Both the position numbers and the translations under genes were made by a program. Positions 20,975 through 26,428 of a stretch of DNA of 64,000 bases are shown piece by piece (position 1 is the stretch's first letter; the number at the start of each line of letters is the position of its first letter). This DNA comes from Clostridia bacterium. Lineage in GTDB: Bacteria > Bacillota > Clostridia > Oscillospirales > Acutalibacteraceae. The DNA is taken from positions 1-64,000 of the forward strand of contig JAGAJB010000005.1 of assembly GCA_017626295.1 (NCBI GenBank), given 5' to 3'. The notes beneath the pieces are model-generated. The model did no database searches. It saw only the letters and a list, made by a program, of their open reading frames with translations, and had not been told where the DNA came from.

Positions 20975-21007
20975 GTAACTGATATTATGTTCTACGGAGG
21001 AACCTAT

Positions 21008-24000
21008 ATGAAATACATTCTTGATAAGGCGAATCATTCAACGTTTAAGATGATTGAGGCAGGGCGTCTTGCTCCCAGAGCGTACGCAATACCCCACAGT
21101 AAAAAGGACTCTGCTGAGAAAGCATACTATAAAACCGAACGTTACAACAGCGATATTGTAACCGTTCTTTCAGGTGAATGGGATTTTAAATATTATAAGA
21201 AAAAATCAAAATTACCTGCAACTCTTGATACGTCAAGGGTAAAGTTTGATTCTGTAAATATTCCGTCAACGTGGCAGAGAACAGGTTATGAAGAACCTGT
21301 TTATCTTAACTGCCCCTACGGTTTTGACCCCAGAACTATGGGACTTCCTAAGGGTGAGGGTGTAAAGCCCCCCGAACTTCCCGAAGATTTTTCCTGCGGT
21401 ATTTACCGTAAATTTATTGATATTGATAACAAGAATAAAAATTATATTCTTACGTTCCTCGGTGTTTCACCTTGTATAGATTTATACATAAACGGCATTT
21501 TCGTAGGTTACGGCGAAGGTTCTCATAACTCTTACGAATTCGATGTTACCGAATTTCTTAAAGAGGGCGAAAACGAAATTATTGCCGTTGTTTACAAATG
21601 GTGTACGGGTACATATCTCGAAGCACAGGATATGTTCAGAGAAAACGGTATTTTCCGCGACGTGCTTCTTTACTCATATGAAAAAACCTATATTAACGAT
21701 TTTGAGGCTGTTGCCCATAAAAAAGGCAAGAAGTATGACCTTGATATTAAGGCAGAGGTAAAGGGCGCATTAAAAGGTGCTACCGTGAAAGCAGTTCTTT
21801 GCGATAACGGTGAAGTTTTGGCAGAAGAGGTTTGTGAAGCTTCCAAAAACAGCGAAATTACTTTCAAAAAACTCAGTGTACAGGAATGGAATGCAGAAAT
21901 ACCGAAACTTTATGAACTCTACATCACCCTTTACAAAGGTGACAGTGAAGTTATGACAATTCGTCAGTACGTAGGTTTTAAAAATATTGAAATAAAAGAT
22001 GCAGTTTTCTATTTCAACGGTAAGAAAATTAAACTTAAAGGTGTAAATCACCACGATACCCACGAAACAAAGGGTTATGCCGAGGATTTTAACGACCTTG
22101 AAAAAGACGTTAAACTTATGAAAGAGTTTAACGTTAACTGCGTGCGCACCTCTCACTATCCTCCCGACCCCTTCTTCCTTGAACTTTGTGACCATTACGG
22201 ACTTTATGTTGTTGACGAAGCGGATATTGAAACACACGGTATTTGGGATTTAGGCTGTGAGGGCGGTACTATCAGCCACGATTTGAAATGGGCACCCAGA
22301 TATATGGACAGAGTAAGAAGGATGTATTTCCGCGACAGAACTCATCCGTCAATTATTATGTGGAGTTTGGGTAACGAATCCTGGGGTTTTAAATGCCACG
22401 ATAAATGCTACAAAATGCTCAAGGATCTGGGAACAGATATTCCCGTTCATTATGAGGGCGTTTCACCCACAAAACGTTATCATTATGATGTTTATTCCGA
22501 GATGTATACCCATCAGGATGATTTAATTAAAATTCGCGAGGGCAAACGCGGTAAACAGTATAAGGAAGTTCCTTTCTACCTTTGCGAATATTGTCACGCA
22601 ATGGGTGTCGGCCCCGGTGCTCTTGAAGAATATATGCAGATATTCTATTCTGACGACATCTTTATGGGCGGCTGTATCTGGGAGTGGGCTGATCACTCGG
22701 TTCTTCACGAGGGAACAGATAAATATAAATACCAGTACACCTACGGCGGTGACCACGGCGAAAAACTTCACGACGGTTGCTTCTGTGTTGACGGTCTTTT
22801 CTATCCCGACCGCACACCTCACACAGGCGCTTATAATATGAAGGTTGCTTACCGTCCCGTAAGAGCAACTAAACTTTCGGGTAACAAACTTACACTTCTC
22901 AATACAAACAGATTTCTTTCCTCTTCCGGTATTGAGGTTTATTGGGAGTGCCAGGAAAACGGCGAAACAGTTGCTTGCGGTTCATTTGCAACAAATATCG
23001 CCCCCGAAAAAGAATGTTCTTATAAACTCGATTTACCCAAGGTGAATTACGATAAAAACACATATCTTAATCTTATTTATCTTAAAGGCGATTTTGAAGT
23101 TGCAACGGAACAACTTACACTTTCCGAAGCACCTTTCATTCAGCCGTCGCTTGAAATGGGTAAAGTTTCAATAACTTCAGACTCTGAAGTTATTACGGTA
23201 AAATATCCTGACGGCGCTATTGAATTTTCAGAGGAAACAGGCGAAATGCTCTCGTACAAAGCGGGTGGAGTTTCTGTTCTTAATAAAGAGCCTGTTTCAC
23301 ATAAAGGTTTCCTTCTTAATTTTACAAGAGCCTATGTGGATAATGACAGACACATTATGGAAGAGTGGGAGTCACACAATCTCTCAAATCTCAGCATTGT
23401 ACTTGAAGATTTAAGTGCAGAAGTAAAATCGGGCGTTGCATCTGTAAGCGAGTATTTCACCGTTTTCGGTAAAGAAGATGCTCTTTTCAACGCAAGCGTG
23501 CTTTACATAATCGGCGCAAACGGCGTGGTGGATATTGAAGTTGCAGTTGCTCCTGCAGAAGGCAGCAAAGAAAAACTTTACAATATTCCCAGACTTGGTC
23601 TTACATTTGAAGCAGATAAAAAATTCAATGAAATCGAATATTTCGGCAGAGGCGAAAAAGAAAACTACAACGATTTCAATATGCACGCACCTGTAGGTCT
23701 TTACAGTGCTAAAGTTAAAGATGAACACGAACCCTATATACGTCCTCAGGATAACTCCAACCACTCTGACGTTTCATACCTTAAACTCAAGAGTGCAAAC
23801 GGCGAAGAAATTCTCATTTATTCCGATAAGAAATTCAACTTCAACGTTCATAACTATACACAGGACACTCTTCATAAAGCAAATCACAGGGAAGATGTTA
23901 TTGATGAGAAAACAACCTTTGTAACTATTGACGGTTACACAAAAGGTACGGGTACAGGCAGTTGCGGTCCTGCAACACTTCCTAAGTACTCTATTGACGC

Positions 24001-24049
24001 ATCAAAGGAACTCACCTTTAACTTTGTAATTGCACCTTCAAAAAAGTGA
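21008..24049 (+). CDS. lacZ: Beta-galactosidase, GH2 (LacZ type)
   Basis: A 1013-residue five-domain LacZ-type enzyme, close in length to E. coli LacZ (1024). The acid/base is E457 in SLGNESWG and the nucleophile E527 in LCEYCHAMG. The VNHHDTH and RTSHYPPDP stretches of the active site are intact, and a C-terminal beta-sandwich (bgal_small_N type, about 735-1010) is present. It lacks a signal peptide, so it acts in the cytoplasm. ATG 21008 follows CGGAGG; the earlier ATG at 20987 lies upstream of this site. Ten bases separate it from the GH78 fusion gene, so both probably attack the same imported oligosaccharide. Confidence 0.92.
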   Translation: MKYILDKANHSTFKMIEAGRLAPRAYAIPHSKKDSAEKAYYKTERYNSDIVTVLSGEWDFKYYKKKSKLPATLDTSRVKFDSVNIPSTWQRTGYEEPVYLNCPYGFDPRTMGLPKGEGVKPPELPEDFSCGIYRKFIDIDNKNKNYILTFLGVSPCIDLYINGIFVGYGEGSHNSYEFDVTEFLKEGENEIIAVVYKWCTGTYLEAQDMFRENGIFRDVLLYSYEKTYINDFEAVAHKKGKKYDLDIKAEVKGALKGATVKAVLCDNGEVLAEEVCEASKNSEITFKKLSVQEWNAEIPKLYELYITLYKGDSEVMTIRQYVGFKNIEIKDAVFYFNGKKIKLKGVNHHDTHETKGYAEDFNDLEKDVKLMKEFNVNCVRTSHYPPDPFFLELCDHYGLYVVDEADIETHGIWDLGCEGGTISHDLKWAPRYMDRVRRMYFRDRTHPSIIMWSLGNESWGFKCHDKCYKMLKDLGTDIPVHYEGVSPTKRYHYDVYSEMYTHQDDLIKIREGKRGKQYKEVPFYLCEYCHAMGVGPGALEEYMQIFYSDDIFMGGCIWEWADHSVLHEGTDKYKYQYTYGGDHGEKLHDGCFCVDGLFYPDRTPHTGAYNMKVAYRPVRATKLSGNKLTLLNTNRFLSSSGIEVYWECQENGETVACGSFATNIAPEKECSYKLDLPKVNYDKNTYLNLIYLKGDFEVATEQLTLSEAPFIQPSLEMGKVSITSDSEVITVKYPDGAIEFSEETGEMLSYKAGGVSVLNKEPVSHKGFLLNFTRAYVDNDRHIMEEWESHNLSNLSIVLEDLSAEVKSGVASVSEYFTVFGKEDALFNASVLYIIGANGVVDIEVAVAPAEGSKEKLYNIPRLGLTFEADKKFNEIEYFGRGEKENYNDFNMHAPVGLYSAKVKDEHEPYIRPQDNSNHSDVSYLKLKSANGEEILIYSDKKFNFNVHNYTQDTLHKANHREDVIDEKTTFVTIDGYTKGTGTGSCGPATLPKYSIDASKELTFNFVIAPSKK

Positions 24050-24058
24050 GGATAATTT

Positions 24059-26428
24059 ATGGAACCAAGGCACGTAAAAGTTTCTTTTAACGATAAACTT
24101 TTTAGGGAAATCATTGCACTCCGCCGCGAAGTTTTTTGCGGCGAGTGCGGTGAAAAACCGCAGTATATTAAAGATAACCGCGATGAAAACGCAATTCATA
24201 TAGCCTGTCTTATAGACAAAACGGTTATCGGTTGCGGCAGTATTTACGATAACGGAAACGGCGAGTTTGAACTTTCAAAAATTGCCGTTAAAAAGCATTA
24301 CAGAAAATTCGGAGTAGGCACAAAAATAGCAGAGTCTCTTAAAAATTATGCAAAAGAGCAAAACGTCAGCAGGTTTGTTGCCGAATTACCTGTTGATGTA
24401 TTAGAATTTTTTGAAAAAATCGGTATGCCCAAAACGGGTGTACCCGTTTCAAAAAACGGTAAAAAGTATATAAAATGCGAAGAAAACCTTGTTTTTGACG
24501 GTGCACAGTGGGTGCAGTTCGGCGGAGAATGTCAGGCTGTTATTGTCCGACAGGATTTTGAGGTTTCTAAAAAAGAATCAGCAGAACTTTTCGTCACAGG
24601 TCTCGGTTTTTGCGAAATTTACATTAACGGAAAAAGTATCAGCGACAGAGTATTGGCACCCGCCTGGACCAATTATGTGAAATCTGCTACGGAAACTATG
24701 TGTTATCCCATATTCGATACTATGACAAACAGAATTCTTTACGAAAGAATTGATGTTTCAAGGTTTCTCAAAAAAGGGAAAAACACAATTGTATTTCACA
24801 TCGGCGGCGGTTGGTTCGCTCAAAGGGAATGTCCCAATGAAGGTGTCAAGCCCTACGGCGATTTGTTGCTTTGTTTTAAACTTCAGTCAGGCGGTAAAGT
24901 TCTTGTTTCAAGCGGTAAAGACACAAAATACAGAAAGTCCTTTGTAACACGCGCTAACCTTTATTACGGTGAGGACCACGACGCACGCCTTAGAGGTTAC
25001 AATTTTTCCGATACGTCTTATGACTTTGAAAACTGGGAAAATGCGGATATAGTGAAAGCACCTCTTTCGGTACTTCAGGAACAAACTTGCCCCCCTGATA
25101 AAATTATCAGAAAGTTACAACCCAAATGCATTTTCAAAAAAGGCGATTTTGCAATTTATGACATCGGAGAAAATGTGGCAGGCTATCCTGTGGTTGAATT
25201 CATTGAAGATGCATATACAGGTGAAAGTTGCGTGCTTCGTTTTGCGGAAGAACTTACCGAAGAGGGTTGTCTTAATTTCCATTCTGCCGGCGGTGAGTTC
25301 CGTATGCAGAAAGATACATATATCCACGATAATATTTGTAACGAGTATTATCCGCATTTCACCTGGCACGGTGGAAGATATTTTGACGTTCTCGGCAGAG
25401 TCCGTGTGAAAGAATACAGAGTAGTTCATACGGATATTAAACCCATAGTGAAGTTTAAATCATCCAATGAAACTCTCCAATGGATTTTTGATGCGTATAT
25501 GAGAACGCAGATGCAAAATATCCATTGTTGCGTTCCCTCCGACTGCCCTCACAGAGAGCGTTTAGGTTATACAGGCGACGGTCAACTTACCGTTAATTCG
25601 GTTATGACTTGCTTTGATGCAGAGGGTCTTTACCGCAAATGGTTACAGGATATTGCCGACTGTCAGGATATATACAGCGGTCACGTTCAGCATACTGCAC
25701 CCTTTTACGGCGGTGGCGGCGGCCCCGGCGGTTGGGGCGGTGCAATGGTAATTGTGCCCTATGCTTTCTATAAACATTACGGTGATAAGGAGATAATAGA
25801 AAAATATTATCCCAATATGCTGATGTACTTTGATTATCTTGAAGAACACAGTGAAAACGGTCTTGTTGTCAGGGAGGAAGTCGGCGGTTGGTGCTTAGGT
25901 GATTGGTGTTCACCTGAGGACAGAAACCTTATTCCCGAACCTTTTGTAAATACATATTTCTATCTTAAAACTCTTTCTATGGCTATTGAAATTTCGGAAG
26001 TTTTAGGTAAACCTGCAAAGGAACTTAAAACCCGATATGAAAAAGTCAAGAAGGCTTTTCTTGATAAATATTATGACAAAAAGACAGGTACTTTCTGTGG
26101 GTCTGCAGAAGCGTGCGACGCTTACGGATATGACCTTGGTTTCGGTAACGAAAAAACTCTTAAGGCTATTGTGGATAAATACACAAAACTCGGAGAGTTT
26201 GACACAGGTATTTTCGGAACAGATATTCTTATACGTACACTGTGCGAAAACGGTCATAAAGACTTGGCGTTTAATCTTCTTACCTCAGAAAAAGAAAATA
26301 CTTTCTATAATATGAAAAAGCAAGGCGCTACGACTCTTTGGGAAAATTGGAACGGAGCATATTCCCACAGTCATCCCATGTTCGGTGCTGTTGTTGAGTA
26401 TATAGTTAAATACTTTAATGAAGCATAA
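24059..26428 (+). CDS. GNAT acetyltransferase fused to GH78 alpha-L-rhamnosidase
   Basis: A 789-residue two-part protein. Residues 1 to about 142 form a complete GNAT N-acetyltransferase with the acetyl-CoA loop RKFGVG (82-87) after LSKIAVKKHY, and the closing region FFEKIGMPKTGVP. From about 150 on it is a GH78 alpha-L-rhamnosidase: N-terminal beta-sandwiches, then an alpha/alpha barrel with the general-acid motif RERLGYTGDGQ (E500) and the second catalytic glutamate in TLWENWNG (E762). The reading frame is open through the junction and no internal ribosome site is evident there. No signal peptide. I know of GH78 proteins with carbohydrate-binding additions but not with a GNAT; the acetyl acceptor is unknown. 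Confidence 0.85.
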   Translation: MEPRHVKVSFNDKLFREIIALRREVFCGECGEKPQYIKDNRDENAIHIACLIDKTVIGCGSIYDNGNGEFELSKIAVKKHYRKFGVGTKIAESLKNYAKEQNVSRFVAELPVDVLEFFEKIGMPKTGVPVSKNGKKYIKCEENLVFDGAQWVQFGGECQAVIVRQDFEVSKKESAELFVTGLGFCEIYINGKSISDRVLAPAWTNYVKSATETMCYPIFDTMTNRILYERIDVSRFLKKGKNTIVFHIGGGWFAQRECPNEGVKPYGDLLLCFKLQSGGKVLVSSGKDTKYRKSFVTRANLYYGEDHDARLRGYNFSDTSYDFENWENADIVKAPLSVLQEQTCPPDKIIRKLQPKCIFKKGDFAIYDIGENVAGYPVVEFIEDAYTGESCVLRFAEELTEEGCLNFHSAGGEFRMQKDTYIHDNICNEYYPHFTWHGGRYFDVLGRVRVKEYRVVHTDIKPIVKFKSSNETLQWIFDAYMRTQMQNIHCCVPSDCPHRERLGYTGDGQLTVNSVMTCFDAEGLYRKWLQDIADCQDIYSGHVQHTAPFYGGGGGPGGWGGAMVIVPYAFYKHYGDKEIIEKYYPNMLMYFDYLEEHSENGLVVREEVGGWCLGDWCSPEDRNLIPEPFVNTYFYLKTLSMAIEISEVLGKPAKELKTRYEKVKKAFLDKYYDKKTGTFCGSAEACDAYGYDLGFGNEKTLKAIVDKYTKLGEFDTGIFGTDILIRTLCENGHKDLAFNLLTSEKENTFYNMKKQGATTLWENWNGAYSHSHPMFGAVVEYIVKYFNEA

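Follow-up and report, generated by a model that had tools for sequence, protein, structure and literature searches.

A GNAT domain fused to a GH78 rhamnosidase in one bacterial family and probably non-catalytic in one of its genera

Introduction

In the 64,000-nucleotide stretch of DNA analysed here (the window) one reading frame joins an acetyltransferase-like domain of the GNAT superfamily to a glycoside hydrolase of family GH78, which raises the question of whether the fusion is real and, if so, what such a domain may do for a rhamnosidase. An earlier note on this locus took the GNAT domain for complete and acetyl-CoA-binding and the GH78 part for catalytically intact, regarded their pairing as new, and suggested that an amino-sugar product or the protein itself might be acetylated. 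These suggestions were followed up by profile searches, residue comparisons and trees. Below, the "window genus" is the genus of the genome that contains the window.

Results

One gene in one frame

The frame runs from ATG to stop over 789 codons and has no internal stops (Table 1). AGGA, a ribosome-site-like stretch read directly from the DNA, overlaps the stop codon of the preceding GH2 gene 6 nt 5' of this ATG. Pfam recognised both parts: Acetyltransf_1 matched residues 29-122 (E 3.5e-10; score 40.6 bits, cut-off 20.7), and all three GH78 domains scored above their curated cut-offs. No hydrophobic leader was seen by eye at the N-terminus, so the protein is probably cytoplasmic.

Table 1. 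Coordinates of the fusion gene, its parts and adjoining features in the window
Feature	Position	Strand	Remark
GH2 gene, LacZ-type beta-galactosidase-like	20987..24049	+	upstream of fusion gene
GNAT-GH78 fusion gene, 789 aa	24059..26428	+	ORF, Pfam, conserved fusion
GNAT domain, residues 9-141	24083..24481	+	SACOL1063/YjcF-like by descent; here probably pseudo-acetyltransferase
P-loop-like motif A RKFGVG, residues 82-87	24302..24319	+	
Phe118 codon, column of putative catalytic Tyr	24410..24412	+	
Bac_rhamnosid_N domain, residues 173-349	24575..25105	+	Pfam
Bac_rhamnosid concanavalin-like domain, residues 365-447	25151..25399	+	Pfam
Bac_rhamnosid6H catalytic domain, residues 465-784	25451..26410	+	Pfam, E 5.7e-69
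Glu500 codon, aligned with general acid Glu636 of SaRha78A	25556..25558	+	
Glu762 codon, aligned with general base Glu895 of SaRha78A	26342..26344	+	
Perfect inverted repeat, 13-base arms, 4-base loop	26433..26462	+	just behind fusion stop codon; read directly

It could be supposed that a frameshift or an assembly error had joined two neighbouring genes. One homologue search covered 60 relatives and included 22 genomes of the window genus. Full-length orthologues with 58-79% identity were found in 16 other genomes of the genus, and all of them align without gap or stop across 24470-24510 (residues 138-151), where a break of the frame had been envisaged. Two further genomes of the genus have a copy: that of G003 is divided between two contigs, and that of G011 is deeper, with 47% identity. 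Counting the window's own genome, the fusion is present in 19 of these 22 genomes. The remaining three have a GNAT remnant (G016), no match (G010) and one weak match (G019, E 3e-4). Six fusion-bearing members of the genus (L015-L020) are without 14 GNAT residues at about positions 25-38.

Among 398 sampled genomes of the family the same uninterrupted fusion was registered in at least 29, belonging to 9 genera (E <= 1e-100; a gene was counted as fused if its match started at query residue 38 or earlier), and G380 and G103 of this sample carry worn versions. This conservation refutes a sequencing or assembly error, the probability of which is practically nil, and equally disposes of the objection that relatives might all have the two domains as separate genes; the earlier note was right that both lie in one frame. 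No fusion was found outside the family among the scored hits of the order, class and phylum samples. In the order (394 genomes, E <= 1e-120) matches from outside the family start at query residue 121 or later, and in the class (391 genomes) and phylum (398 genomes), searched with L061, whose GNAT ends near residue 147, they start at residue 154 or later. Counts at all four levels are lower bounds, with at most two candidates scored per genome, and the genome sets overlap, so that rarer fusions may exist elsewhere. The N-terminal extensions of L094 and L098 were considered as possible fusions outside the family and rejected, as Pfam finds no GNAT there. The 14 named relative contigs come from MAGs, and for seven the label gives the gut of water buffalo, water deer, cattle, goat or sheep as the source. 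Both domains are covered on 11 of the 14; L044 is truncated by the contig edge, and no GNAT is present in L045 and L046.

Rhamnosidase part

The catalytic glutamates of the GH78 part, called intact in the earlier note, are indeed conserved. In the alignment Glu500 and Glu762 correspond to Glu636 and Glu895 of SaRha78A, which are the general acid and the general base according to excerpts of PMC7263609. Glu500 occurs in all 86 rows, and Glu762 in all 83 rows reaching that position. With SaRha78A (3W5M/3W5N) and 6I60 the window protein shares the same GH78 domains, these acid/base residues and the other aligned sugar-site residues but one Trp, which is replaced by Tyr504 in 86/86 rows; the acid motif is also one residue shorter than in SaRha78A, and on the alignment these two features may mark a distinct GH78 subfamily. 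Unlike SaRha78A and 6I60, the window protein has an N-terminal GNAT added and ends right after the six-hairpin domain.

The C-terminal beta domain PF17390 is common in GH78 and is not catalytic. In the window protein it gave no hit at E up to 1, and only 3 residues follow residue 786 both here and in other window-genus rows. Roughly 50-88 residues after the six-hairpin domain are missing from the window genus (except G011), from g42 and from the GNAT-less L046 and L049, whereas all other complete GH78 rows have 43 or more residues there. Judging from this alignment, the sub-clade seems to have lost its C-terminal domain.

A probable single gain and several losses

The GH78 tree (86 domains, 647 columns, quick method with SH-aLRT support only) was built from fetched loci with BLAST E <= 1e-100, excluding same-contig copies and the split G003 gene. 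All 40 full fusions, three partial ones (L070, L076, L086) and five GNAT-less rows fell into one clade with SH-aLRT 100, the GNAT-less rows forming two groups, L046+L049 and L062+L064+L069. The 38 rows outside this clade were called GNAT-less from the start position of their matches, and a Pfam check of four GNAT-less rows, taken from these or from the clade (L094, L098, L025, L100), found no GNAT. A topology separating fused and partial rows from GNAT-less ones was rejected (p-AU 2e-12; 53 rows, with L076 excluded and 6 of the 38 outside rows used). In the GNAT tree, drawn from 66 rows, few forks are well supported, and two switches between the fused and the unfused state are required. The GH78 tree is most simply read as one gain, after which GNAT was lost completely twice and eroded in part three times; several independent gains are less likely, and the conservation of the fusion within one family is best explained by a single event. 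The remnant in G016 is real: the GH78 frame of this genome (L127) starts within the stop codon of the GH2 gene preceding it, which leaves no hidden GNAT between them. GNAT-less lineages keep their GH78 residues, so not every GH78 of the clade can strictly depend on the GNAT domain.

Descent and lost residues of the GNAT domain

By profile match the window GNAT is a member of the GNAT superfamily by descent. For the GNAT part of the family profile, and for canonical GNATs of the group, the best solved relatives were SACOL1063 and YjcF, then 3efa and ElaA. With the window GNAT alone as a query YjcF came first, weakly (E 3.7e-5), and the best NCBIfam model was TIGR04045, below its cut-off, which counts against the reading preferred below. 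The window GNAT has the whole domain length in common with the SACOL1063/YjcF/ElaA-type proteins. It differs from them in being fused to GH78 and, with its genus, in being without Gln30, Arg61, Tyr118, His137 and Met140.

These differences were estimated by setting the GNATs of 18 window-genus rows against those of 23 other fused and 24 standalone-type rows (22 standalone and 2 fused to PyrK). The standalone set was collected with a canonical fused GNAT as a query from the best 30 loci only and therefore leans towards canonical residues. A 69-residue fragment (L145) was dropped, and L147, a likely fusion cut by a contig edge, entered neither set and is placed among the fused rows of the tree. 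G011 (L023), the deeper member of the genus, keeps the Tyr; it was counted among the 23 other fused and not among the 18. In the column of Tyr118 this residue occupies 24/24 standalone-type and 23/23 other fused rows against 0/18 in the window genus, and the window itself, with Phe118, is without the conserved Tyr of the FYEK-type motif. Gln30, Arg61 and Met140 are found in all 47 comparison rows and in none of the 18; the same contrast, less complete, holds for Glu37 (43/47 against 0/18), His137 (39/47 against 0/18) and Gln111 (44/47 against 1/18). The cofactor loop and core are better held in the genus (Arg82 in 16/18, Gly87 in 17/18, Phe117 in 18/18). FY stands at the Tyr118 column in five solved-chain alignments (SACOL1063 twice, YjcF, 3efa and ElaA), and the canonical EQG, R-G-K-G-L-G and FY stretches are found in L005, a standalone GNAT encoded by the window's own genome.

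Two members of other genera of the family, L132 (31-1275, +) and L134 (1492-2685, -), have a second kind of GNAT fusion, with a GNAT of the same group attached C-terminally to a PyrK-like protein. These partners have DHODB Fe-S binding and NAD-binding domains and are unrelated to GH78.

Thus, the domain called complete in the earlier note has its whole length, but residues conserved in its subfamily are missing. RKFGVG, cited there as the acetyl-CoA-binding sequence, is present and fits motif A ([QR]xxGx[GA]), which is intact in 10/18 genus and 19/23 other fused rows; its persistence in the window and in these 10 members counts against a non-catalytic reading. Standalone GNATs keep the motif in 15/23 cases, and since their first Gly varies as well, an intact motif A is a poor marker of activity. 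For the same reason loss of motif A was dropped as a mark of a dead GNAT.

A working bifunctional enzyme, with GH78 cleaving rhamnosides and the GNAT adding acetyl groups to a substrate or product that bears an amine or to the protein itself, would agree with the intact motif A of the window, with the Acetyltransf_1 match above cut-off, with dN/dS under 1 (see below) and with an active glycosidase-linked GNAT that serves hydrolysis in RmNag (excerpts of PMC4680927). Against it, 18/18 members lack the presumed catalytic Tyr along with other residues of the subfamily, L015-L020 have a gap of 14 residues, and two lineages that kept GH78 lost GNAT altogether, so that we regard this possibility as rather unlikely. 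With the columns of Tyr118, Gln30, Arg61, His137 and Met140 replaced in all 18 rows, an active acetyltransferase is, on this comparison, improbable for the window protein, and nothing found in this analysis points to a role in acetylating an amino-sugar product. Some GNATs work without this Tyr, so loss of catalysis is not proven. Fused GNATs of the sister genera keep the subfamily residues and may be active acetyltransferases.

Rates and selection

Branch lengths of both parts were estimated on the GH78 topology (39 rows, L071 excluded as incomplete, rooted on L061). The GNAT/GH78 ratio was 7.9 on the stem and 2.7 in the crown of the window genus against 1.26 outside this clade and its stem. 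For g156 the stem and crown values were 1.6 and 2.2, and for g42 2.5 and 0.9. A high rate is not by itself a sign of lost catalysis, because g156 with its fast crown and g42 with its long stem both keep the Tyr. Pairwise dN/dS (Nei-Gojobori; non-independent pairs with more than 77% GH78 identity, saturated values removed) was 0.08-0.38 for GNAT against 0.04-0.09 for GH78 in the window genus, 0.11-0.34 against 0.08-0.10 in g156, and about equal in g42 (0.04-0.12 and 0.05-0.12). With 18/18 genus copies open through GNAT, the domain in the window genus is freed but not neutral: it stays in frame under weaker purifying selection.

These data also bear on the possibility that the GNAT is a fading relic, functionless and carried until deleted, as has already happened in other lineages. 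Fast evolution of the domain within the window genus, its partly eroded state in L070, L076 and L086 and its absence from L046/L049 and L062/L064/L069, all within the fused clade, are what such decay would look like. However, the frame is open in every genus copy, GNAT dN/dS is well under 1, and Ser61 (17/18) and Glu71 (18/18) are newly fixed in the window genus, which suggests a new constraint and is consistent with a role that has changed, not vanished. We consider a relic unlikely.

Neighbouring genes

The GH2 gene lies 9 bp upstream on the same strand, and the best models for its product are of LacZ-type beta-galactosidase, with scores under NCBIfam cut-offs. In 11 of 16 extended loci a GH2 homologue directly precedes GH78, whether GNAT is present or not, and the two genes seem to form a conserved unit. 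A connection between the state of the GNAT and the GH2 neighbour was looked for by eye, and none was seen: GH2-adjacent loci include canonical, eroded and absent GNATs. In two g42 genomes an alanyl-tRNA-editing-like gene (L112:5197-6351, -; L125:8536-9687, -) replaces GH2 upstream of the fusion; the L112 gene has tRNA_SAD and DHHA1 domains, and its L125 counterpart has a similar start. The inverted repeat behind the fusion gene sits between two convergent genes and looks like a terminator.

Discussion

Glycosidase-GNAT fusions are already known as a kind, in GH3 (excerpts of PMC4680927 and PMC5063960) and GH84 (excerpts of PMC3919268), so the novelty claimed for the pairing does not extend to glycosidases in general. 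For GH78 itself no paper on such a fusion was found in the open-licence PMC literature, judged mostly from titles and abstract starts. One parallel is RmNag. Excerpts of PMC4680927 describe it as a fungal GH3 beta-N-acetylglucosaminidase with tandem C-terminal GNATs, in which the substitution Y842A abolished transacetylation, while domain C, with Phe for the catalytic Tyr as in the window protein, holds AcCoA tightly and is taken as non-catalytic; the full-length protein dimerises through its GNAT region. RmNag differs from the window protein in its GH family, its fungal origin and its two C-terminal GNATs, one of them active. Human O-GlcNAcase (GH84), according to excerpts of PMC3919268, also has an acetyltransferase-like domain that is unlikely to be a classical acetyltransferase, but it belongs to another GH family and has another domain order. 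Candida Ngs1 likewise combines GH3-like and GNAT domains in one chain; excerpts of PMC5063960 present it as a sugar sensor with histone acetylation, and no such role is suggested for the window protein.

Based on these data we consider it fairly probable that the window protein is a GH78 alpha-L-rhamnosidase with a non-catalytic GNAT of SACOL1063/YjcF-like descent, structural or acetyl-CoA-binding. Its GH78 part would act on plant oligosaccharides taken up by the cell and cleave off their terminal L-rhamnose, jointly with the LacZ-type GH2 enzyme encoded in the same direction. A burst of change in the window genus has removed from the GNAT residues otherwise invariant in the comparison sets, including the putative proton-donating Tyr, and this part would no longer transfer acetyl groups. 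It may survive as a non-catalytic domain that serves stability, dimerisation or acetyl-CoA-binding regulation, and by analogy with domain C of RmNag it most probably serves as a platform without catalysis, perhaps still able to bind CoA.

A more elaborate history, in which the ancestral GNAT-GH78 was a true two-step enzyme of one family of gut bacteria and the window-genus GNAT turned in one burst into an acetyl-CoA-binding regulator, is quite doubtful. Were it true, the ancestral GNAT would have acetylated an amine-bearing partner or substrate of rhamnoside breakdown, and the present regulator would couple rhamnoside cleavage to the acetyl-CoA level of the cell.

With the fusion described here, GH78 joins the list of glycosidases with a built-in GNAT. 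One family offers a natural series in which the same rhamnosidase bears a canonical GNAT, a pseudo-GNAT, remnants of one or no GNAT. The use of a pseudo-acetyltransferase to a glycosidase, which is also asked for human O-GlcNAcase, thereby becomes testable with small bacterial proteins.
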